A stretch of 11,999 nucleotides of DNA. Origin: an uncultured candidate division Zixibacteria bacterium. GTDB taxonomy: Bacteria; Zixibacteria; MSB-5A5; GN15; FEB-12. The number at the start of each line of letters is the position of its first letter. Position 1 is the stretch's first letter. The stretch lies in assembly GCA_913009765.1 (NCBI GenBank), contig CAJVYT010000096.1:1-11999 (forward strand), given 5' to 3'. The position numbers were made by a program, and so were the translations under genes. The notes beneath the pieces were generated by a model. The model made no database searches. It was not told the DNA's origin and saw only the letters and a list, made by a program, of their open reading frames with translations. Below, one piece after another: positions 2,209 through 11,848 of this stretch.

Positions 2209-3546
2209 TCACTTTGCGAGTCTGTATCTTTTCAGAGCATCCGGGAACAGTTGATTCATTGGATTCGAAGGCAGTTTGAACACAACCTGCACGAATTTTT
2301 CAGGTATAACCGGGTCGACTTTCATTATAAAAGGTTCAATATATTCTTTTGCAAAATTCATGAATACAATACCTTCTCCCACACCCAACCTGTCAATCTT
2401 ATCATTAAGCCTGGGGTCAAGTTTCATAGATTTAGAAATTGAATCCCTGTCTTGCCCCTGCAACTTAAAAAGTAATATAGTTCCTGCATTATTTGTGATA
2501 TAATTCTGGAGATCTGTTACGTCCTGAGTAGATACTATTACCCCCACTCCGTATTTCCTGCCTTCTTTATACAGTGCTTTCACAGGTGATTGTTCTATAT
2601 TGATTACCTTCCATGCTTCATCAAGGACCACTATAAGTTGAAGCGGGTTTTTTGACAGACCTTTATTTCTCATATACTCTACAAGAAACTGTAATATGCT
2701 TATTGCAACACTCGACCTGCTGTTTTCATCCGGTAACTTAGATAAATCTATTACCACAAATCCACTCTCAAAAAGTTCTTCCAGTTGAATAGTGGAATGT
2801 CTGGCAAGAACATCGTTGGGCGGTTTGGTATAAACCTCAAGTTTCTCCAGCAATCCTATCGCACTTTCCCGCATACTGTGGCTGCTGGCCATCATCTGTA
2901 CAATTTTTGTTATCTGTTCGTTATATTCTTTATTCTTAAAATCACCGGTAACTGCATCGAAAATCAATTCCCCGAGTAGGTTACATACGTCTTTCAGAGT
3001 AGGAGGCTCCCTGTTCCAGGTTTCAATATTGCTGGTGATACCTTTTTTTTTGTAACCCTCTTCTGTGAGTATCCTGAGTATTCTCGCCTGTCGGGTAGCC
3101 TTTTCAGTATCCAGGAAAGGTTTTAATGCCACCTCTGCCTGTTTAGCTTTTATACCCGGTGAGATTCCAGTCCCAAGGTCAAGCACATTTATTGCGTCTC
3201 TTCCCAGCTGAATCACGTGGCCTCCGACCATTTCCGCATACACCACATACTCGCCGGTGAAATCCATTACGAGTATATTTGAGTTGAACTCGATAGACGC
3301 TCTGCTGATAAGTGTTTCAATTGTGGTGGATTTTCCAAACCCCGTCCCTCCCAGAATAGTTATATGGGGATTGGCTATTTTTTCAGGGCGCCAGAATACC
3401 GGTTTTCTCAGAATATCCGTATGGCCCAGATAGACCGCCTTTTCTCCTGCTTCCGGAATAAGGGATTTACTCCGTGGTTCCGAAGGTTTGATTAATAGCG
3501 TTCTGGTTACCAGCTCGGATACTTTGATTCTCTGTATCACACTCAT
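2209..3546 (-). CDS. HerA/VirB4-like DNA-translocating or secretion ATPase
   Basis: 445 aa, last gene of a four-gene operon. Walker A is GGTGFGKST (66-74), followed by an early strand ILVMDFTGEY (91-100) typical of HerA/FtsK/VirB4 ATPases. Walker B is LIVVLDEAW (304-312; Asp309, Glu310), then EGRKYGVGVIVSTQDV (328-342), the sensor Gln region. The C-terminus ends with RLGVGEGIVFM and a final strand. No membrane segments are seen, so it is a cytoplasmic motor. The ATG lies 3 nt after the preceding stop, implying coupling to the membrane protein gene. In Sulfolobus CedB and in conjugative systems VirB4, such ATPases power DNA or protein movement through a polytopic membrane partner. Chromosomal HerA (repair) is less likely because no NurA neighbours it and its neighbours are membrane proteins. 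Confidence 0.8.
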   Translation of the reverse strand: MSVIQRIKVSELVTRTLLIKPSEPRSKSLIPEAGEKAVYLGHTDILRKPVFWRPEKIANPHITILGGTGFGKSTTIETLISRASIEFNSNILVMDFTGEYVVYAEMVGGHVIQLGRDAINVLDLGTGISPGIKAKQAEVALKPFLDTEKATRQARILRILTEEGYKKKGITSNIETWNREPPTLKDVCNLLGELIFDAVTGDFKNKEYNEQITKIVQMMASSHSMRESAIGLLEKLEVYTKPPNDVLARHSTIQLEELFESGFVVIDLSKLPDENSRSSVAISILQFLVEYMRNKGLSKNPLQLIVVLDEAWKVINIEQSPVKALYKEGRKYGVGVIVSTQDVTDLQNYITNNAGTILLFKLQGQDRDSISKSMKLDPRLNDKIDRLGVGEGIVFMNFAKEYIEPFIMKVDPVIPEKFVQVVFKLPSNPMNQLFPDALKRYRLAK

Positions 3547-3549
3547 AAC

Positions 3550-4062
3550 TCAGAATACCCCCAGATAGAAGATGCCCGCCGAGCTGACTGTGAAAATTAT
3601 AAGAGGAAATATGATTTTGCCGGATGATGACTTATGGATTTCCGTACCAAACCACCCTGCAGAATAGCACAGAAAAGTCCCGGTGATAAGGACAAAGAAA
3701 ATATTATACATAGAATGTGCTGTAGGGAATGCAAATAAAACAGAAGAGAAGTTTTCTTTACCGGAGGTGAAACTCATTGCAGTGAGAAAATGCGGTATTA
3801 TTTTTGCCAGAGGTGTAAATACATAGGATACCCTGACTCCCACGGCGAGAGATATTAAAACAGAAGCAAGGCCATAGTACATGGCAGAGCCCAGGAGAAT
3901 TGTAATTATCGCCAGAAACGTAGTGGATGGGAGTATTTCAGCCACCGCATACCATTTCCCACTGACGAAAGGCAGAGCGATTCCAGACATGAATGCAATC
4001 ACAGCAAGGTAGGAGACCAGTTCCTGTTGTAAGATATCTTCTGTTATTGTTGTCTTTCTCAC
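3550..4062 (-). CDS. Polytopic membrane protein of the transfer-like operon
   Basis: 170 aa with about four or five hydrophobic segments at roughly 15-33, 45-76 (one long or two helices), 118-136 and 149-170, and short polar loops. The start is GTG at 4062, overlapping the stop of the preceding MinD-like gene by 4 nt (GTGA), and the HerA-like gene follows 3 nt after its stop. Being wedged between two ATPase genes suggests it is the membrane channel or platform that one or both dock on, in the position of CedA in Ced or VirB6-like proteins in conjugation systems. I recognise no family motif, so the role is inferred from topology and gene order only. Confidence 0.6.
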   Translation of the reverse strand: MRKTTITEDILQQELVSYLAVIAFMSGIALPFVSGKWYAVAEILPSTTFLAIITILLGSAMYYGLASVLISLAVGVRVSYVFTPLAKIIPHFLTAMSFTSGKENFSSVLFAFPTAHSMYNIFFVLITGTFLCYSAGWFGTEIHKSSSGKIIFPLIIFTVSSAGIFYLGVF

Positions 4063-4643
4063 CGTTGGAACAGCCCCCTCTTTTTCTTGTTTATTTTCCC
4101 TCCCTTCCTCTGAAGTTTCAACTTCTCTCCGATTTTAATTATCTGAGTCTCCATCCTCCTGTCCATGTCTTCATATGTTACAGGTTCGCCCGTATACAGA
4201 CAATTCTCTATATCATTGGAAAGAGGAGTCCAGCCTATAAGGGATACTCCCAATTTATGAGCAATTTTCTCTGCCTCTTCTTCACCGGATGCCATGGAAA
4301 TAATAACACCCTGGATGTGGGCATTTGCAAACTCCTTCATGTCTTCTATCATTCTTTTTGTGGATGCAACCTCATGTGTGTGCGGAGAGGTTACGACTAT
4401 GACCCATCCGTCCGGGTTTTCCTTTAGGATATGATAATAGGGCCTCCCTCTCTCATCTACAAGAGCGGTATCAATTATACAGGGGGCGATGATACCGTCT
4501 TTATCATAGGGCTCTGCCCCCGGGAAGAGCTCTGTAAGTGCCCTGTAAGGGTCGGCGTCATACACGCCTATTGCGTGTGTGACAGCCAATAACGAAGCTA
4601 TCACGGTTTTGCCGGGTCCTTTTCCGCTCAGAATTAGTTTCAT
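4059..4643 (-). CDS. MinD/ParA/CooC-like (SIMIBI) P-loop ATPase with altered Walker A
   Basis: 194 aa. The first strand leads into LSGKGPGKTVIASLLA (5-20), a deviant Walker A one residue shorter than the usual SGKGGVGKT. VYDADP (28-32) matches the DADP of switch I in MinD/CooC proteins, and CIIDTALVD (55-63) resembles the switch II strand. TSPHTHEVASTKRMIEDM (85-102) and AHKLGVSLIGWTPLSNDI (128-145) follow the MinD pattern of a helix after the fourth strand and the LG-xxLGxxPxD strand. The segment between P-loop and DADP is shorter than in MinD. The gene begins 5 nt after the upstream stop and overlaps the downstream start by 4 nt. A role in positioning or assembling the membrane machine is inferred; plasmid partition with the ParB-like protein upstream is an alternative. 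Confidence 0.7.
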   Translation of the reverse strand: MKLILSGKGPGKTVIASLLAVTHAIGVYDADPYRALTELFPGAEPYDKDGIIAPCIIDTALVDERGRPYYHILKENPDGWVIVVTSPHTHEVASTKRMIEDMKEFANAHIQGVIISMASGEEEAEKIAHKLGVSLIGWTPLSNDIENCLYTGEPVTYEDMDRRMETQIIKIGEKLKLQRKGGKINKKKRGLFQR

Positions 4644-4648
4644 TTATT

Positions 4649-5035
4649 TCACCAGGTCGGGACTTGGTTTGCCAGCGCTGTCGAACCGCTCCCTGCACGC
4701 AGAAAGAATTTTATCAGTACGGGCAATGCTGCAAGTATAAGTAGTGATATAAGTGCAACGGTGAATATTTTCTTTCCTTTCACAAACATCTCCGCACCTT
4801 CCGACCTGTCACCACCCACTGCACGCCCGACAATTATCATTCCCAGACTTACAAGTAATACTGCGACATCCAGATACAATAACAGTGTGACTATACTCTG
4901 TATGTAGAATTTGTTCTGTAACAGCGGGATTTCCTGCATAAGCCCGCCCAATCCAGTCTCCTGTACCGCTGCAACACTGTTAAAGATAATGTCTATCAGT
5001 ATTGAAACAACCATTATGCCTCTAATCGAAGCCAT
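4649..5035 (-). CDS. Small membrane protein, candidate VirB2/CedA1-like pilin subunit
   Basis: 128 aa, first gene of the transfer-like operon. Hydrophobic segments lie at about 5-24, 46-70 and 90-112. The first could be a signal or anchor ending in AAVQ. The remaining two helices are joined by a short charged loop GRAVGGDRSEGAEMFVKGKK (70-89). Two helices linked by a short basic loop is the plan of VirB2/TrbC conjugative pilins and of archaeal CedA1/TedC. The start is ATG at 5035 with GGAGG at 5043-5047 and a TATA element at 5074-5089. The assignment rests on topology and neighbours (HerA/VirB4-like ATPase three genes on), not on sequence identity; a simple accessory membrane protein is possible. 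Confidence 0.6.
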   Translation of the reverse strand: MASIRGIMVVSILIDIIFNSVAAVQETGLGGLMQEIPLLQNKFYIQSIVTLLLYLDVAVLLVSLGMIIVGRAVGGDRSEGAEMFVKGKKIFTVALISLLILAALPVLIKFFLRAGSGSTALANQVPTW

Positions 5036-5042
5036 CTCTATT

Positions 5043-5047
5043 CCTCC
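5043..5047 (-). promoter_or_regulatory. Ribosome-binding site of the VirB2-like gene
   Basis: GGAGG on the minus strand, 7 nt before the ATG at 5035, confirming that start. Confidence 0.6.
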
Positions 5048-5073
5048 ATTCAGATATCACAGGATACAGAAAT

Positions 5074-5089
5074 GAAGGGAGTATATAAA
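5074..5089 (-). promoter_or_regulatory. Extended TATA promoter of the 5035-2209 operon
   Basis: Minus-strand TTTATATACTCCCTTC, 39-54 nt before the start codon at 5035. It is nearly the same as the elements at 5960-5975 and 10721-10736 (consensus TTTATATACYYCCTTY), which is longer than a TATA box alone. Expected transcription start is near 5057, giving a leader of about 20 nt. Confidence 0.65.
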
Positions 5090-5103
5090 GGGAGTGCTGT
5101 TTT

Positions 5104-5125
5104 CTTTCTGGTACCTACCAGAAAG
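5104..5125. repeat. 22-bp near-perfect palindrome (possible operator or RNA hairpin)
   Basis: Two perfect 10-bp arms, CTTTCTGGTA and TACCAGAAAG, flank a 2-bp centre. It extends by two more pairs after one mismatch (5101-5128). It overlaps the stop codon of the peptidase gene and ends 15 bp upstream of the TATA element of the next operon. No T-run follows it on the minus strand, so it does not look like a simple terminator. A regulator site for the downstream promoter is the more attractive reading. Confidence 0.6.
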
Positions 5126-5705
5126 GAACAAAAAAATGCAACAGCGTGATTATAAGGATTATGTGCAGAAACGGGAATGGTTTATATGTTTTTTGACATG
5201 TTTCAACATACAGCATTTCGTTATATTTCATATATCCAAGGTATAGGAAAGCCAGCAGCCCTCCAAATACACGGGAAATCAAAATAAGCGCTGCCAGAGC
5301 GACAACTACCATAGGCTCGATATTTTTCATAGCTTTTTTTGTAGGAAAAGCAATCCAGAGCATAATACACGCCATAACAAAAAATAATGGCTGCACAGGG
5401 GATGAGAAATTTAACACCAATAGACTGAGGATAATAAATTTAGCATCAGCGGGGCCCAACCAGGCCAGATAAAACATTAATAAAACAATGACAGAAGCTG
5501 CAACTCTGGACATAGCCAGAACGGGAGAAACAGAGAATTCTATCAGACAAAATATAAAACCTGTTATGAGACCTCCGAGTAGAATTTTGTTCAGTAGTGG
5601 AGAGATCTCTGCCTTATGAAAGTCCTGCACAGAGCCAATTGCCAGAAGGCTAATAGCAAAATACGATAAAATATTATAAAAAAAAGAAAGGAGATTGGGC
5701 AGCAT
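5115..5705 (-). CDS. A24-family prepilin peptidase-like membrane protease
   Basis: 196 aa with about six membrane helices. The two catalytic aspartates of the A24 family are visible: Asp28 in SVQDFHKAEISPLLNK, just after helix 1 and followed by the polar stretch that usually precedes an N-P/N-x turn, and Asp87 in AWLGPADAK, matching the archaeal GxAD form of the GxGD motif. Archaeal members (FlaK, PibD, EppA) cleave class III signal peptides of archaellins and pilins in the membrane. The gene starts 11 nt after the stop of a tiny pilin-like protein, its natural candidate substrate, with aaggtg as ribosome site. Length is somewhat short but within the archaeal range. The C-terminal part (about 160-196) adds a further helix. 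Activity is inferred from the two Asp motifs and the neighbour. Confidence 0.8.
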   Translation of the reverse strand: MLPNLLSFFYNILSYFAISLLAIGSVQDFHKAEISPLLNKILLGGLITGFIFCLIEFSVSPVLAMSRVAASVIVLLMFYLAWLGPADAKFIILSLLVLNFSSPVQPLFFVMACIMLWIAFPTKKAMKNIEPMVVVALAALILISRVFGGLLAFLYLGYMKYNEMLYVETCQKTYKPFPFLHIILIITLLHFFVPFW

Positions 5706-5716
5706 GAACCCACACC

Positions 5717-5929
5717 TTAAGGCGCACCAACGGAAGATACGAATACGCTTGTTTTTGTAGATACAGTGCCGATTGTGGTGCTGGCCTTCTGGTATGCTAT
5801 GTAGGCCAGAGCAGCTATCATCGCTGCTACAAGCACAGCTACGATAAGTCTTATAGGAGTGGATATCTCTGCAGACCTTCCATTGACAAAGCGCTCTGAA
5901 AAAGCCTTTGCCTTTGATATTCTTCCCAT
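5717..5929 (-). CDS. Small type IV pilin-like protein
   Basis: 70 aa from the ATG at 5929. The frame is open farther upstream to a GTG at 5983, but that extension would translate the TATA element, and GAGGTGA sits just before the ATG, so the short form is preferred. A basic N-terminus (KAKAFSERF) leads to NGRSAEIS (16-23) and one hydrophobic helix at about 24-46, then a Thr/Ser-rich tail. This layout matches archaeal class III signal peptides: if Gly17 is +1, Ser19 and Glu21 fall where the Q-x-S-x-E pilin motif has its Ser and Glu, though Gln is replaced by Gly. The prepilin peptidase gene follows directly, 11 nt on. The tail is very short, with no globular head. Pilin identity is inferred; a small single-pass accessory protein is the alternative. 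Confidence 0.6.
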   Translation of the reverse strand: MGRISKAKAFSERFVNGRSAEISTPIRLIVAVLVAAMIAALAYIAYQKASTTIGTVSTKTSVFVSSVGAP

Positions 5930-5959
5930 CTTATTTATCACCTCATCAGATGAAAAAGC

Positions 5960-5975
5960 AAAGGGGGTATATAAA
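5960..5975 (-). promoter_or_regulatory. Extended TATA promoter of the pilin-peptidase unit
   Basis: Minus-strand TTTATATACCCCCTTT, 31-46 nt before the ATG at 5929. Same 16-bp type as at 5074-5089 and 10721-10736. It lies in the 30-85 nt between the adhesin stop and the pilin start, so the pilin can be expressed separately from the adhesin. Confidence 0.65.
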
Positions 5976-6013
5976 GGTACCACTGATTTCTCAGCAATAT
6001 GAACTACTTTGTC

Positions 6014-8740
6014 CTATTGTAATGTCACATTATCAATGGCGCCATATGCTGTATAATACCAACCCCACCAAGCATAATAATTATTTCTAAAAGTTCCTGT
6101 TTTTCCTTCAAATTTTAACACATCAGCATCAGGTTGAGATATTCCAAGTTTTACCTCTCCTATTTCTTTTAGTGTAACCAACCAACCATTATATTGATTA
6201 AACTCTGCTACATCGTAAAATTTTACATTATAAATACCAGAAGTTAAATTAAAAGAATATAACTTCCATTTTTTATTAGTCACACCAAAATTATTTGTTT
6301 TAGTACCTATTTTAATAACAATTCCTTTATTAATAGGATACCCCAATGCTGGATTAACACTTTTACCTTCTAAATATACATTATTCTTAGTGCTAGCCAG
6401 GTGATAATTAGACCACCCTGTCCGATTAGAAGGTGTGTTAAAGTTCCACGATATTGATTCGCTATAATAAAACTTTGTTGTTTCTGTTGTAGATTTACCG
6501 TTATCTCCGACAGCATGTAGAGTTACGGTATTCCATGCATTTGGTTTGAACAGAAGGCTCGGGTTGTTGAGACCCCAATTATTTGTTGTAATGTGTTTCA
6601 TAAGGAGCCAGTTACCATTATTCAACTTCAGATATACTTTTGACACACCGTACGGCGAATATGCTGCTGCTGTAAATTCACCTGTGTTTTTAAGCGGATT
6701 ATATCTCCCGTTATTCTTCTCAGAAGTCAAATAAATATATGGTGGAGTGTTAAGTTTATATGTGACCCTGTATTCTTTTACGTTACCCGCATCGTCTGTT
6801 AGTCTGAAAGATAATGTGACACTCTTTGTTGTTGTTGCATGAAACACAAGATTACCATCGAGTAATTTCTGTCGAGAGCTCGTTGCTGTCCTGACAGTTA
6901 CCCACTGCCCGGGTCCTGTGATATTCCCATTAACGTCTATGAACCCCTTATCATTTGATATTTCCACTTCAATTTTCTTCACTCCATAATCATCCGAAGC
7001 AGTGAGATTAATTTCCTGATTCACTGAAGTAATAATACTGTTGTTTTGAGGTGAAACGGATTTCAGTGCGGGTGGCTCGATATCATAGTATATTTTACCC
7101 ACAGTAGTGCCGCTTTTTCTGCCTGACCAGTCTTCTGCTTTTACATCTATAGTGTTCCAGCCGGGAGTAAGTCCCAGTTTGCCTGCGTCAGTGTAGAAAT
7201 ACTCTGTACCAACTTTGATAGGATATATATATCCTGACACGCCCCACAAGTCGGTGCCCAGAGCGCCGATATAAGTATTCTCATATCTCCCTGCCCGTAT
7301 CCAATCTCCCCGGCGTATCCATACAGTAACCTTCGGTGAAGGCTGGTCAAATGCTTTTTTTATCTGGCCTCCATACACTCCAGCTATTATCCCATGTTGA
7401 ATGGAGAATTGATTTAGTCTGTGATATCCGCTATCATCACTTACACGGACAATTACACTGTTGTTTGTAACTCCTGTTGTGCGGAATATCGGATTATAGA
7501 TTGTATTATAGTCACACCAGGTGTTTTCCTGGTTCCATGATTTTTTTGCCACTCCAAAATAAACTTCTATTGGGCAGGGGTCCCATCCTGAAGTCCCGGT
7601 AGTATAACTGGCGTAAAGAGTGGACCCACGGCTATAAAACCCTTTTTGAATCCGGGGTGCTTCTTTATCCCCATACACTATAAGTTTTCCTGAGACACCC
7701 CCCGAGACAACCGGGAGGTTAAAAAAGCATGTATCCTGTTTGAGCTTACCTGAATAAAAAATATTGTAAACACGATAGAAATACCCAAAATCTCCCTGGT
7801 CATAGCCATCGTTATAAGCACACCCTGCACGAATGTTTTTTATAGCAAGCTTCTTCTGGAGACTAAAAGGTTCATATAGCCATACTTTCAGGTTTTTAAT
7901 GTGTAAAGATCCACCGCCATAATCAGAATAGGTAATTTTATTGTTTTGCCACACAGGTTTGTAAAAAATTGTATATTCCGGGGCGTAATTGGAATTTGCC
8001 AGTGAAAAGGTTGCGGCCAGTTTGCCTTTTACTCCTATGAAATTGTGTGTATCTATTGTGATAGTGCTGACATACAATCTACCTTCTGGATCGTAAACAT
8101 TTAGTGTCATACCGTTTGTAATAGGGTCCTGCAGGAACCCCTTCTCAGTCCTTCCGGGAGCATGTACAACAATCCTGAACCCTGTATCAGTATAAAATGC
8201 CAGATCTGATTGGCCTACTTTGCTTGTAAACGGTAAGTAATATGTACGCCACTCACCTTTTCCTGAGAATGGATTATATATTACCAAAGCTGTGGCCGTT
8301 GCACTTTTACCATTTTTGTCTATTGCGTGAACTGTTATTATATTCTTACCGGTAATCAGATTGACGTTTCTTGCAACCCATGCAGCTGTACCTGTTGCTG
8401 TCTTCCATGTTCCGTTATTAACTTTATACTGTACATTTCTGATAACCCTCTTTGACCATGCCCTGCCTGTGATAGTTATTGGACTTGTCAGAGTAGTCAC
8501 ATTGTTTCCAGGGTATAAAATAGATACAGAAACCCCGGATGCAGGAGTTTGCGATGTTTTATAAACCCCTTGTGGTGCTGTTCCGCCCGATTCAATAGCC
8601 ACGGGCATCCAGATTGTTATGTTACCTCTTTCAACAATCATATAGCCGGGAACAGTTGTGTTCGCATATACAGGAGAGTATATTATTAGTGCAAGTGCCA
8701 GCGTGAAAAACACCGGGAGTATCAATTTTGCGTTATTCAT
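6014..8740 (-). CDS. Secreted multidomain Ig-like adhesin or surface protein
   Basis: 908 aa. The Sec signal peptide MNNAKLILPVFFTLALALII is followed by a likely cut after VYA (26). An Ig-like domain spans about 70-157. Further Ig-like units at about 470-555, 557-665 and 666-752 carry the recurring pattern NxIxVxAxDxxGKS...Y (for example TGKNIITVHAIDKNGKS at 130-146 and WNTVTLHAVGDNGKS). Residues about 763-908 begin SWNFNTPSNRTGW and end GAIDNVTLQ, the frame of jelly-roll carbohydrate-binding domains. No C-terminal membrane helix or sorting signal is seen, so anchoring is unknown; it may decorate a pilus or the S-layer. Many NxS/T sequons are present. Its own TATA box lies 25 nt before the ATG and there is no ribosome site, so it is probably leaderless. 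The 3' end is much richer in A+T than the rest. Adhesion is inferred from domains and the pilus neighbours. Confidence 0.7.
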   Translation of the reverse strand: MNNAKLILPVFFTLALALIIYSPVYANTTVPGYMIVERGNITIWMPVAIESGGTAPQGVYKTSQTPASGVSVSILYPGNNVTTLTSPITITGRAWSKRVIRNVQYKVNNGTWKTATGTAAWVARNVNLITGKNIITVHAIDKNGKSATATALVIYNPFSGKGEWRTYYLPFTSKVGQSDLAFYTDTGFRIVVHAPGRTEKGFLQDPITNGMTLNVYDPEGRLYVSTITIDTHNFIGVKGKLAATFSLANSNYAPEYTIFYKPVWQNNKITYSDYGGGSLHIKNLKVWLYEPFSLQKKLAIKNIRAGCAYNDGYDQGDFGYFYRVYNIFYSGKLKQDTCFFNLPVVSGGVSGKLIVYGDKEAPRIQKGFYSRGSTLYASYTTGTSGWDPCPIEVYFGVAKKSWNQENTWCDYNTIYNPIFRTTGVTNNSVIVRVSDDSGYHRLNQFSIQHGIIAGVYGGQIKKAFDQPSPKVTVWIRRGDWIRAGRYENTYIGALGTDLWGVSGYIYPIKVGTEYFYTDAGKLGLTPGWNTIDVKAEDWSGRKSGTTVGKIYYDIEPPALKSVSPQNNSIITSVNQEINLTASDDYGVKKIEVEISNDKGFIDVNGNITGPGQWVTVRTATSSRQKLLDGNLVFHATTTKSVTLSFRLTDDAGNVKEYRVTYKLNTPPYIYLTSEKNNGRYNPLKNTGEFTAAAYSPYGVSKVYLKLNNGNWLLMKHITTNNWGLNNPSLLFKPNAWNTVTLHAVGDNGKSTTETTKFYYSESISWNFNTPSNRTGWSNYHLASTKNNVYLEGKSVNPALGYPINKGIVIKIGTKTNNFGVTNKKWKLYSFNLTSGIYNVKFYDVAEFNQYNGWLVTLKEIGEVKLGISQPDADVLKFEGKTGTFRNNYYAWWGWYYTAYGAIDNVTLQ

Positions 8741-8814: not shown

Positions 8815-9942
8815 TTAATACAAAAGAGGAGGGAGTATTTTATTGAGTTTGTTGATATCACGTGTTGCAATGGATACTGCAATATTCACATTCTTCAAAA
8901 TTTCCTCTATACTCTTTTTGTTTCCCAGTATACTTTCATACACATTTGCAAGTTGATATATGAAAACTTCAGCGTCCTCAAAACTGGGAGTACCTTTCGA
9001 CCTCAGTATGAGATAATAGAAATTATACAGATATGCAGATAGGAAAGACCCCTTGGCAGATACCACATAATTGTTATCAGTATCACTCTTTTTTATGTAA
9101 CCTCTTATTACCAGATTTTCTATACTTTCTTTAATTTTTATATCTGCACTTCCACAGGCTTGGATAATCTCTTCTTCGGAGAGAGCAGAGCTCCGGAGTT
9201 GATACACAACCATCAGGTCGGTGGAGGACAGTGAGGCAACCTCTTTACAAATATCTATTGGGGTGATTAAGCTTTTGTTGTTTTCAGGGTCATGTTTCTT
9301 GAGTTCCTCTCTTTTCACTTCTCGGATTCCTTCTCTGGCCTTTTTCACCTCACCATTCGCAACCTTTTCAAGAACTTTCTTTTGAACCTCTTCAGGCTGT
9401 TTTATCAATAATTTTGCTTCAGGAATGGATAGCTTTCCTTTCACAACTTTCTCAGCAATTTCAGGTGATTTCTGCTTTATCTTTTTGGCGTCTGAGACAT
9501 AATGAGGATTAGTTCCTACTAATTTGGCTGCATGGTCTCTTGCCCGCCCCTTATCCAGTTCGGGAATTATTTCCCTAACTGGATTTTCTTTATACTGTGG
9601 TGCATTATAATGTCCGATTGCCTGCCTTTCCTTCGCTTCCTCCTCAAGAAAAGGTAGCATGTTCTCAGATATCATAGCCTTCTGCGACTGTGATAAATGC
9701 CTGCGATGAAGATTTAACGATATTATGAATTCAACAAGAGATCCTTCACCATCCCATTCTCTTAACTGTAGTTTGACACCTGCTTTCTCGCAGGCAAGAT
9801 ACCTGTTTCTGCCATCAACTATTTTTCCTTTCCATGTCCAGATTGGTTCCCTGAGACCATGTTTTCTGATGTCTTTCACAAGGTCCTTGAACTCTTCCTC
9901 TGCCATTAGCGGGAAGATATTCGTGATTGGGTGAAACTTCAT
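8815..9942 (-). CDS. ParB-like DNA-binding protein with C-terminal winged helix
   Basis: 375 aa, soluble. Residues 1-80 form a ParB/sulfiredoxin-fold domain: MKFHPITNIFPLMAEEEFKDL is the usual opening strand and helix, and DGRNRYLACEKAGV (43-56) is the signature. A middle helix-turn-helix at about 128-165 (GRARDHAAKLVGTNPHYVSDAKKI) resembles the KorB/ParB central domain. A winged helix follows at about 238-298, ending YIKKSDTDNNYVVSAKG, then a helical tail. The ATG at 9942 has GAGGTG before it. The gene is 37 nt downstream of the zinc-ribbon protein. No ParA is adjacent; the nearest is the MinD-like ATPase about 5 kb away. It may be a partition protein or a ParB-fold transcription factor of the element. 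Confidence 0.75.
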   Translation of the reverse strand: MKFHPITNIFPLMAEEEFKDLVKDIRKHGLREPIWTWKGKIVDGRNRYLACEKAGVKLQLREWDGEGSLVEFIISLNLHRRHLSQSQKAMISENMLPFLEEEAKERQAIGHYNAPQYKENPVREIIPELDKGRARDHAAKLVGTNPHYVSDAKKIKQKSPEIAEKVVKGKLSIPEAKLLIKQPEEVQKKVLEKVANGEVKKAREGIREVKREELKKHDPENNKSLITPIDICKEVASLSSTDLMVVYQLRSSALSEEEIIQACGSADIKIKESIENLVIRGYIKKSDTDNNYVVSAKGSFLSAYLYNFYYLILRSKGTPSFEDAEVFIYQLANVYESILGNKKSIEEILKNVNIAVSIATRDINKLNKILPPLLY

Positions 9943-10370: not shown

Positions 10371-10547
10371 TCAAATGAGATTATGTCCTTTTGCTACTTT
10401 GAGCAGACCATTTGCCAGATTTTTATTGAGTTCATTGCCTCTCTCCGAGAGGTCTTCTAAGGAGTGTAAAAACTCGGGGTTCTCCAAAGATTCTTCCAGG
10501 TCGGCAAGTAATTGATACTTACCCTTTCTTTCGGTTGTTTTTTTCAT
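10371..10547 (-). CDS. Small charged hypothetical protein
   Basis: 58 aa, beginning MKKTTERKGKYQLLADL and ending VAKGHNLI. It is highly charged and probably all helical. Its ATG overlaps the stop of the upstream RHH gene (ATGA, 4 nt) and the zinc-ribbon gene begins 13 nt after its stop, so it is translated within the control cluster. I recognise no family. The placement directly after an RHH protein, with a 4-nt overlap, is like the partner of a toxin-antitoxin or partition pair, but its sequence has no toxin motif that I can see. Confidence 0.55.
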   Translation of the reverse strand: MKKTTERKGKYQLLADLEESLENPEFLHSLEDLSERGNELNKNLANGLLKVAKGHNLI

Positions 10548-10696
10548 TCTACAACCCTCGGCCTTCTTTCCAACACACGTCTGGCAGCATCCTTAAAGAA
10601 CTCAGATCTGCTACTGTAATACTCCTCCTCTATAAGATTGTCTATTTTCTTCACAAGTTTCTTAGGTACCGTTATTGTTAGATTTTTACCTTTCAT
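10544..10696 (-). CDS. Ribbon-helix-helix (CopG/Arc-like) DNA-binding protein
   Basis: 50 aa: MKGKNLTITVPKKLVKKI is the N-terminal strand that pairs in the dimer to contact DNA, then helix 1 (about 13-24), the turn YYSSRSEF (26-33) and helix 2 (about 34-44). This is the complete RHH fold and nothing else. The start is ATG at 10696 with GAGGTG at 10702-10707 and the extended TATA at 10721-10736. Being first in its operon, it is a good candidate for an autorepressor of this cluster. It overlaps the next gene by 4 nt. The family is clear from sequence; which DNA it binds is unknown, with the 18-bp repeat as the first candidate. Confidence 0.8.
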   Translation of the reverse strand: MKGKNLTITVPKKLVKKIDNLIEEEYYSSRSEFFKDAARRVLERRPRVVE

Positions 10697-11029: not shown

Positions 11030-11848
11030 TTGGGATATCATGACCTGATAAAAAGAGCCAATGACATCCATCGTCTTGCCAGGAGACTCATGCACGAGAA
11101 TTGCAGGCGTAACATGTTCGTGAAGGAACTTATGGTCATGGACAGCCATATTGCGAAAGCACTTGACAGAGATGGTGTAAATGCAGATGCTAGAAAATTG
11201 GCACTGCTAGCAGTCTGGTTCGAAACGGTTAGGGAAGTACTCAGGCTTTCCCGACCAGGAAATCATCTGAAGAAAGGAGAACCTATGGGCTCTGAGGAAC
11301 TGGATGCTATAGATTACAAGTTGGAAGAGGTGCTGGACGAGGTAGAATTAGAAGCACAGCGGCTTGACGGATATTACCCAAAGATGGTATCAAAAATGCG
11401 AAAGATGATTGCTGTGCACAGGCACGAACTCTTCGTCCATGTGACGGACAGCAAAGGAAATGATGTATCCTTCAGCAGGGATAACAATTTCCTGGAAAGG
11501 AACCATCGATGGGGGAGGATGCACTGCAGGAGGAGGACAGGTAAGAGTATGACCCGGCGGGAGATGGACGCCCACGGAGCATTGAACGCCATCTTCTCCA
11601 ACCTTTTCAATGAGACTTATGTGACAAAGGTTCTTGGGGATGTAAAAGACCTGGGCATGGCGTTTCACCAGATTGATTACAAGGAGGTAAGGGAGTTTTT
11701 GAAGGAGCTACAAAGACGCAGGAAGGGACACATCCTCCCTGTAAAAGATTCCGACAGAGGCGACCTACTGAAGAGTCTCGTGGAAACCCTGGAATACGAT
11801 GATTTATACTGTGGGAGGATTAACGAATGGATAGCGGCACTCAGCTAA
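11030..11848 (+). pseudogene. 5'-truncated transposase (C-terminal catalytic part)
   Basis: About 272 aa from a TTG at 11030; the frame stays open up to 10838 with no ATG before about 11084. Helical segments lead to NNFLERNHRWGRMHCRRRTGKS (about 155-176), which matches the final Glu-containing NNxxE...RRxTG block of DDE transposases (IS66/ISNCY-like), followed by a helical tail. The DDE Asp residues expected upstream are not present in this frame, so the gene is a remnant. The piece between 10838 and 11030 (SSFLEYSRKHSGGFPF and following) seems to continue the same protein, with an old breakpoint near a T8 run at 10845-10852. GC content is higher than in the neighbouring genes. The exact IS family is not certain. 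Confidence 0.5.

Follow-up and report, generated by a model that had tools for sequence, protein, structure and literature searches.

Only a handful of conjugation systems are known in archaea. Among the descriptions closest to the locus considered here, that of the Ted loci of Thermoproteales lists TedA, TedB and TedC together with VirC1/ParA-like and HerA-like genes, placing MinD/ParA with VirB2-, VirB6- and VirB4-like genes, and relates TedC and TedA by profile comparison to CedA1/CedA and VirB6 (PMC9905601). The Ced system of Sulfolobales, which imports DNA (PMC9905601), has a HerA/VirB4-superfamily motor and small membrane proteins beside class III (Ups) pili (PMC9905601, PMC11868833). 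Thaumarchaeal integrative and conjugative elements (ICEs) carry VirB4, VirD4, VirB6, VirB3, TadC, a prepilin peptidase, pilins and ParB; VirB4 and VirD4 occur together in the majority of them, and the presence of FlaI and PilT ATPases has been reported (PMC6563490). The integrative archaeal plasmids of the pT26-2 family, including pMEFER01, encode a HerA/VirB4-like ATPase of 447 amino acids (aa), small membrane proteins and large surface proteins, with a proposed function in DNA transfer (PMC6972569). The Sulfolobus plasmids pNOB8 (conjugative) and pHGQ25 encode DUF87 ATPases as well as ParB-type and ribbon-helix-helix (RHH) proteins. Here we compare with these systems a compact minus-strand gene cluster on contig CAJVYT010000096.1, of which the whole stretch analysed, 11,999 nucleotides (nt) long, is referred to as the window. 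In our estimate, the chances are about even that the window carries part of an archaeal mobile element of the integrative kind, namely its transfer module, in the form of a stripped-down type IV secretion (conjugation-like) machine built around a bare HerA/VirB4-superfamily motor.

As reported in the first-pass annotation of this DNA, the open reading frame (ORF) list of the window contains six closely packed minus-strand genes in two units at 2209-5929. Spacings within the units are -4 to 11 nt. These genes and the sites preceding them are the following.

2209-3546, minus strand: HerA/VirB4-superfamily ATPase, bare motor domain, 445 aa (Pfam DUF87; own clade in the tree)
3550-4062, minus strand: polytopic membrane protein, 170 aa, GTG start; candidate inner-membrane pore (hydropathy)
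4059-4643, minus strand: small MinD/ParA-like protein, 194 aa (Pfam ParA below cut-off; homologues in relatives)
4649-5035, minus strand: two-helix protein, 128 aa; candidate VirB2/CedA1-like pilin
5067-5120, minus strand: likely promoter of the four-gene unit, a TATA-like box and the TGGTAGGTACCA palindrome (repeat family D1, palindrome search)
5115-5705, minus strand: A24-type prepilin peptidase-like membrane protein, 196 aa (PF01478 below cut-off; both aspartate motifs)
5717-5929, minus strand: class III-type pilin-like protein, 70 aa from its ATG (motif and hydropathy only)
5953-5991, minus strand: likely promoter of the pilin-A24 unit, a TATA-like box (repeat families D1/D2)

The four-gene unit comprises the genes for the 128-aa, MinD-like and 170-aa proteins and the ATPase (spacings of 5, -4 and 3 nt), and the two-gene unit those for the 70-aa pilin-like and A24-like proteins (11 nt); 79 nt separate the two. 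The 70-aa gene, which begins at 5929, is counted from its ATG, the mechanical ORF extending to 5983, into a TATA-like repeat. Repeats of this kind (families D1/D2) are present at 5067-5105 and 5953-5991, one 5′ of each unit, and are likely to be promoters. All genes of the cluster except the 70-aa one have homologues or at least a weak family match.

Like Ted, the cluster brings together a candidate two-helix pilin, a polytopic protein, a VirB4/HerA-type ATPase and a ParA/MinD-superfamily ATPase, the last being present in the window as a protein 0.7 bits under the PF10609 cut-off with an altered Walker A motif. However, the homologies of TedC and TedA were established by profiles, whereas the window proteins are only candidates for the corresponding roles, and Ted was compared by description (PMC9905601). 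The window also has a probably mobile setting, an A24-like protein, a class III-type pilin and a surface protein, whereas a prepilin peptidase is not mentioned for Ted in the portion of PMC9905601 available to us. The combination of motor, small membrane proteins and class III-type pilin recalls Ced with its Ups pili, but the CedB and CedD models match far below cut-off, the VirB4-like N-terminal domain is missing and the peptidase is encoded within the cluster. Thaumarchaeal ICEs combine a VirB4-type ATPase and ParB with a prepilin peptidase and pilins, for the last two of which the window has candidates, and share a TFIIB gene with one locus of a relative described below, G001 (PMC6563490). 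The window, likened to them by description, differs in its 12 kb with one bare motor and a degenerate MinD-like protein, and no TFIIB gene was found in this partial contig. Its ParB passes the Pfam HTH_ParB cut-off (23.5 versus 22.6 bits) and matches the pNOB8 ParB at E 5e-8 in a set of 19 proteins. The gene combination, previously noted as unfamiliar, is thus partly familiar, given that peptidase, VirB4 and ParB are published for thaumarchaeal ICEs (PMC6563490) and MinD/ParA with VirB2, VirB6 and VirB4 for Ted (PMC9905601). As far as our searches show, what appears to be new is the bare-motor ATPase family with its spread over at least two archaeal phyla, the degenerate MinD-like partner, and a surface protein encoded directly upstream of the ATPase in another relative, G006.

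The ATPase matches Pfam DUF87 over cut-off (6.1e-16) and has Walker A at residue 66 and Walker B (VVLDEAW) at residue 306. Its best NCBIfam model is CedD (83.8 bits; cut-off 600), followed by CedB (77.5 bits; cut-off 700) and VirB4 types, all below cut-off, and the PADLOC models for DndH and MADS8 match at similar scores, so that the label holds at the superfamily level only. Orthology with CedD was considered and rejected, because every one of the 23 genomes of the nearest archaeal phylum has matches to the CedD model (none over cut-off, 17 of the matches above 83.8 bits), so that its rank as top match is a superfamily signal. The proposed comparison with Ced-type motors accordingly ends in orthology with neither CedB nor CedD. 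Because Walker A sits at residue 66 of 445, there is no space ahead of the motor for a VirB4 N-terminal domain, and none is present judging from this position and from the NCBIfam alignments, in which the best stretches of the VirB4-type models (TIGR00929, TIGR02746, NF045971, NF045975) cover the ATPase only from profile positions 391-489 onward.

To place the ATPase, 75 proteins were scored with profile A1, which had been built from the window protein together with nine relatives. The window ATPase and eight of the building rows score 711-795 bits by construction. Among proteins not used for building, the three ATPases from the nearest phylum reach 294-323 bits and a wider group 255-331 bits (named members from Asgardarchaeia, Micrarchaeia and Micrarchaeota), followed by more distant relatives (121-191 bits), bacterial HerA-like proteins (at most 69 bits) and the chromosomal HerA-like proteins of the nearest phylum (at most 66.5 bits). 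The three DUF87 ATPases of the Sulfolobus plasmids pNOB8 and pHGQ25 fall outside the family at 47-60 bits. Membership in the pT26-2 family was likewise rejected: the 447-aa ATP-binding protein of pMEFER01, which we take to be the counterpart of t26-14p, scores 19.6 bits as against at least 255 for the wider family, and the best of 12 further pMEFER01 proteins matches the window at E 0.019. In a 36-row tree, made by a quick method with Shimodaira-Hasegawa-like approximate likelihood ratio test (SH-aLRT) support, no bootstrap and two long-branch rows, the chromosomal HerA-like group is separate from the window family, and the three nearest-phylum ATPases do not form one group. On profile scores and tree we reject identity with chromosomal HerA, the compared proteins being the HerA-like proteins of the nearest phylum, putative NurA partners, and we place the ATPase in a clade of its own within the HerA/VirB4 superfamily, in agreement with its earlier description as HerA/VirB4-like.

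A scan of genome contigs with the ATPase returned at least 80 loci, most of them titled Micrarchaeota and 13 titled Marsarchaeota, ainarchaeum or archaeon. Seven two-helix pilin-like proteins chosen by hand, 5 of them from these loci and 2 from G001, were used to build a pilin profile, which detected 16 genes at E<1e-5, distributed over 11 of the 80 loci listed; 11 of the 16 were new and 5 had built the profile, and a single further match among the 80 had E 0.51. All 16 genes lie upstream of the ATPase gene on the same strand: in 7 loci the distance is about 2 kb, in the other 4 it is 8 to 10 kb. Of ten linked proteins, nine match Pfam T4SS_pilin, with E between 2.5e-4 and 0.19, and two match TrbC/VirB2, all below cut-off, and a profile comparison with the G001 pilin-like pair gave a probability of 94%. 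The presence of pilin-like genes upstream of the ATPase in these 11 loci supports a role in secretion or transfer. In most of 13 Micrarchaeota loci examined (for example, L014, L022 and L042), a protein of ~270 aa precedes the ATPase, which is mostly followed on its 3′ side by a two-helix membrane protein of 120-200 aa (often with CxxC) and by proteins of ~250 aa and 750-870 aa. The listings from literature searches limited to open-licence papers contained no description of the Micrarchaeota ATPase locus.

In the nearest archaeal phylum, the ATPase is present at E<=1e-25 in 3 of the 23 genomes. In G006, the surface protein gene is followed 10 nt later by the ATPase, then by ParA and, near the contig end, by a MinD-like gene with one in-frame stop. 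A 6.5-kb region of G026 encodes a 302-aa hydrophobic protein, a 397-aa membrane protein, a 169-aa A24-like protein, the ATPase and ParA, the ATPase gene being convergent with the A24-like gene and overlapping it at the 3′ end. The G026 A24-like protein has no Pfam match; aligned over 94 positions, it shares 44% identity with a G001 protein scoring above the A24 cut-off, which supports the joint occurrence of the ATPase, ParA/MinD and a putative A24-like peptidase in a second lineage. G001 has two loci resembling one another, in both of which a MinD-like gene is accompanied by a gene for a pilin-like protein of 114-115 aa. The first locus further encodes a membrane protein of 396 aa and a 64-aa protein of class III-like type, on a contig that also carries ParA and TFIIB genes; the G001 ATPase is on a different contig. 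Both element-like regions of G001 (L107/L109 and L108; G001:C162 and C34) additionally carry a gene resembling 3′-phosphoadenosine 5′-phosphosulfate reductase, with TFIIB on the first contig. The 396- and 397-aa proteins of L107 and L088 have the size of TadC/FlaJ, but no relevant Pfam, NCBIfam or PDB match, and the TadC-like label is unconfirmed.

A sign of mobility comes from G005, in which an intact 128-aa gene (97%), preceded by a ParA-like gene, is followed by a frameshifted MinD-like gene. This relic, 91.6% identical to the window at the DNA level over 909 aligned bases, ends at a distance of 7 nt from the 3′ terminus of a tRNA-Ser gene that contains an intron, and the break in homology falls inside the MinD-like gene. 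Recurrence of the genes for the 128-aa and MinD-like proteins in a decayed remnant next to tRNA-Ser makes mobility of the cluster probable; the ParB and RHH genes of the window are further signs of mobility. Homologues of the MinD-like gene occur in G001 (two), G005 and G006, near ATPase, ParA or pilin-like genes, and matches at E<=0.001 were obtained in 6 of the 23 genomes, three of them weak. The window protein itself matches Pfam ParA (PF10609) at 5.6e-6 (26.4 bits; cut-off 27.1), and its Walker A reads as altered (SGKGPGKT).

The 128-aa protein consists of an N-terminal hydrophobic helix and a two-helix hairpin with a short charged turn. Compared with the G005 copy, its gene shows 21 synonymous and 4 non-synonymous codon changes over 129 codons, a sign that the ORF is more than a chance one. 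Clear relatives in the nearest phylum are confined to G005, with four more matches at E 0.002-0.08. A Foldseek search with the model of this protein returned no VirB2-type pilin in the best 50 of 134 matches (best E 0.46), an absence that proves nothing. By hydropathy, the 170-aa protein has about five hydrophobic segments, but it could not be placed in any family: Pfam and PHROGs gave no match and NCBIfam one far below cut-off, two relatives at 85-86% were found besides the window copy, and its AlphaFold model is unusable, with a predicted local distance difference test score of 38. An apparent homologue in G006:C146 (E 5e-4) was discarded, lying antisense to an ORF read as transposase-like.

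If the cluster is a transfer module, the 128-aa protein would be exported and polymerise into a fibre or conduit of the VirB2/CedA1 type, a membrane pore would be formed by the 170-aa protein, and the ATPase, devoid of the VirB4 N-terminal domain, would dock on this pore and drive the movement of DNA and/or pilin. The MinD-like protein may deliver the element DNA, bound by ParB, to the pore, and the 70-aa class III-type pilin, its own A24-like peptidase and the immunoglobulin (Ig)-fold surface protein would contact the partner cell, a task performed by Ups pili beside Ced in Sulfolobales. We infer the pilin and the pore, as well as DNA as the cargo, the direction of transfer and the integration of the element.

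Several results weigh against this interpretation. The 128-aa protein shows no significant similarity to VirB2: comparison with pilin profiles gave a probability of 0.4-0.5%, and with the pilin profile it scored -2.1 bits, rank 98 of 1001 including 1000 class-preserving shuffles. The VirB2-like label given to it previously is not supported, and it remains a candidate pilin. For the 170-aa protein, no distant homologue was found. The linked pilin-like proteins have no NCBIfam support in the six tested and no PDB match, and those of G001 have no Pfam match. No pilin-like gene was detected in 69 of the 80 loci listed, 17 of the 80 having less than 3.5 kb upstream and 63 at least 3.5 kb. The ATPase family is present in 173 of 196 Micrarchaeota genomes, and such a near-universal core gene need not mark conjugation. 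Gene order is not conserved across relatives: in G005, the 128-aa gene is preceded by a ParA-like gene instead of the A24/pilin pair, and in G006 the surface protein gene directly precedes that of the ATPase, which disposes of the six-gene order as a fixed unit. The G005 tRNA-Ser gene was found with the intron option of ARAGORN and is absent under default settings. Finally, the 12-kb window, a partial contig, yielded no relaxase, no VirD4-type receptor and no integrase. Of the minimal archaeal transfer apparatus proposed in the first-pass annotation, there remain a HerA/VirB4 motor other than the chromosomal HerA-like type, the linkage of its wider family to T4SS-pilin-like genes, the joint occurrence with ParA/MinD and an A24-like protein in G026 and a probably mobile setting, but neither a placed 128-aa or 170-aa protein nor a fixed six-gene unit.

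Some of these points would also suit a surface filament or a protein-secretion and adhesion device that transfers no DNA, its ATPase powering the export of pilin and surface protein for attachment or contact-dependent competition. Such a device would readily accommodate the lack of a detectable relaxase and VirD4-type receptor in the window, the near-universality of the ATPase family in Micrarchaeota, the A24-like protein with its class III-type pilin, the defence-like pair adjoining the cluster, and the large surface protein that adjoins the machine genes in the window and directly precedes the ATPase in G006. The relic beside the tRNA gene speaks against it, and the ParA/MinD and ParB neighbours would be better suited to DNA handling; we consider it unlikely. 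Domesticated or host-serving DNA import of the Ced type, for host DNA exchange or repair rather than spread of an element, would fit the nearest functional models, Ced and Ted, the former an importer of DNA (PMC9905601), and the core status of the ATPase in Micrarchaeota. In the nearest phylum, however, the ATPase is confined to the 3 of 23 genomes mentioned above, with a relic of neighbouring genes in one more, a patchy and decaying distribution resembling that of a mobile element, and this explanation appears quite improbable.

A gene block as compact as this, encoding a surface protein, small membrane proteins and an ATPase, could also be the morphogenesis module of an archaeal membrane or filamentous virus, in which the 908-aa surface protein would be the spike, the small hydrophobic proteins structural components, and the FtsK/HerA-superfamily ATPase a device for genome packaging or extrusion. 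HerA-like helicases are listed as possible viral DNA pumps in archaeal dark-matter islands (PMC4158269), and PHROGs yielded a weak Zot-like match (0.0017) and a match to a terminase-labelled family. Nevertheless, IMG/VR scans with the ATPase (twice), the surface protein, the MinD-like protein and ParB found no relative, none of 9 proteins matched a capsid in PHROGs, the ATPase is nearest to CedD/CedB/VirB4 and DndH-type models and not to Zot, and its relatives are linked to T4SS-pilin-like genes. A viral module is, in our judgement, rather improbable.

Returning to the transfer module, we tentatively suggest, as a possibility still open to considerable doubt, that archaeal type IV secretion-like machines include a further family, recognisable by this ATPase, which runs without the VirB4 N-terminal domain and stands apart from Ced/Ted and from the thaumarchaeal ICE type. 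This family would exist in two states: an element-borne transfer module with its own adhesin, class III pilin and peptidase (the window and the phylum with 23 genomes), and a near-universal chromosomal machine in Micrarchaeota, perhaps for DNA uptake from hosts or neighbours. A machine consisting of a single bare motor, a pair of small membrane proteins and a MinD-like partner would, if real, show which parts of type IV secretion are dispensable, and the ATPase family, if it is core in most Micrarchaeota, would be a candidate for the exchange of DNA or protein between reduced archaea and other cells.

Upstream of the cluster, the window encodes three further proteins relevant to this interpretation.

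6014-8740, minus strand: Ig-fold surface protein, 908 aa; candidate adhesin (Pfam Big_7, hydropathy, G006 homologue)
8815-9942, minus strand: ParB-like protein, 375 aa (Pfam HTH_ParB, PHROG ParB-like)
10544-10696, minus strand: RHH (CopG-type) regulator, 50 aa (Pfam RHH_1 at 4.2e-9, over cut-off)

The surface protein, overlooked in the first-pass annotation, probably belongs to the same machine. It matches Big_7 at 2.7e-8, has an N-terminal hydrophobic segment, and is 56% identical to its G006 homologue (L089, 279-3347) over residues 569-907, the C-terminal 339. N-terminal of this region, identity between the two is only about 24-27%, which reads as a conserved base with a variable outer part. 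The A24-like protein falls short of the PF01478 cut-off (5.3e-4; 20.8 versus 26.5 bits) but retains both aspartate motifs (the first Asp and GPAD-x-K), both aspartates being invariant in 3 of 3 proteins when aligned with two element-borne A24-like proteins. Among the motif-based labels given earlier, that of the HerA/VirB4-like ATPase is borne out, whereas the A24 and MinD-like matches, both below Pfam cut-offs, are weaker than claimed. The 70-aa protein has a polar N-terminus followed by a single hydrophobic helix, as judged from sequence and hydropathy; no family exceeded cut-off in Pfam, PHROGs or NCBIfam, and its pilin label comes from the motif alone. A PilB/VirB11-type ATPase or relaxase, stated earlier to be missing, is indeed not found among the window proteins scanned in Pfam, PHROGs and NCBIfam, the smallest ORFs being outside the scan.

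Downstream of the cluster, at 124-1913, an AAA_21 ATPase and a 173-aa TOPRIM/DUF3226-like protein match the PADLOC candidate system HEC-01 (2e-50 and 7e-9). The 272-aa ORF at 11030-11848 on the plus strand has no Pfam match and looks transposase-like by eye, for which reason the contig may end in an insertion element; a circular contig was rejected, the ends having no overlap. The ParB-like protein matches a PHROG ParB-like family at 1.2e-14 and has a 72% homologue of its N-terminal 140 residues in G005, and its C-terminal part weakly matches, below cut-off, archaeal Sta1/Lrs14 winged-helix regulators.

The exact TGGTAGGTACCA palindrome at 5109-5120, 5′ of the four-gene unit, is likely to be an operator shared by the operons of the element. 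A search allowing up to two mismatches gave 4 matches at 3 places (shuffle mean 0.74), a number reached in 2 of 200 shuffles. The D1 repeat and palindrome also precede the 128-aa gene in L105 and the ParB gene in L106; in G005, both stand 5′ of a ParB N-terminus encoded on a second contig. The copies of TGGTAGGTACCA in L105 (about 1771, with one mismatch, and 2658) and L106 (1539) lie 5′ of the 128-aa gene, the ParA-like gene and the ParB gene.

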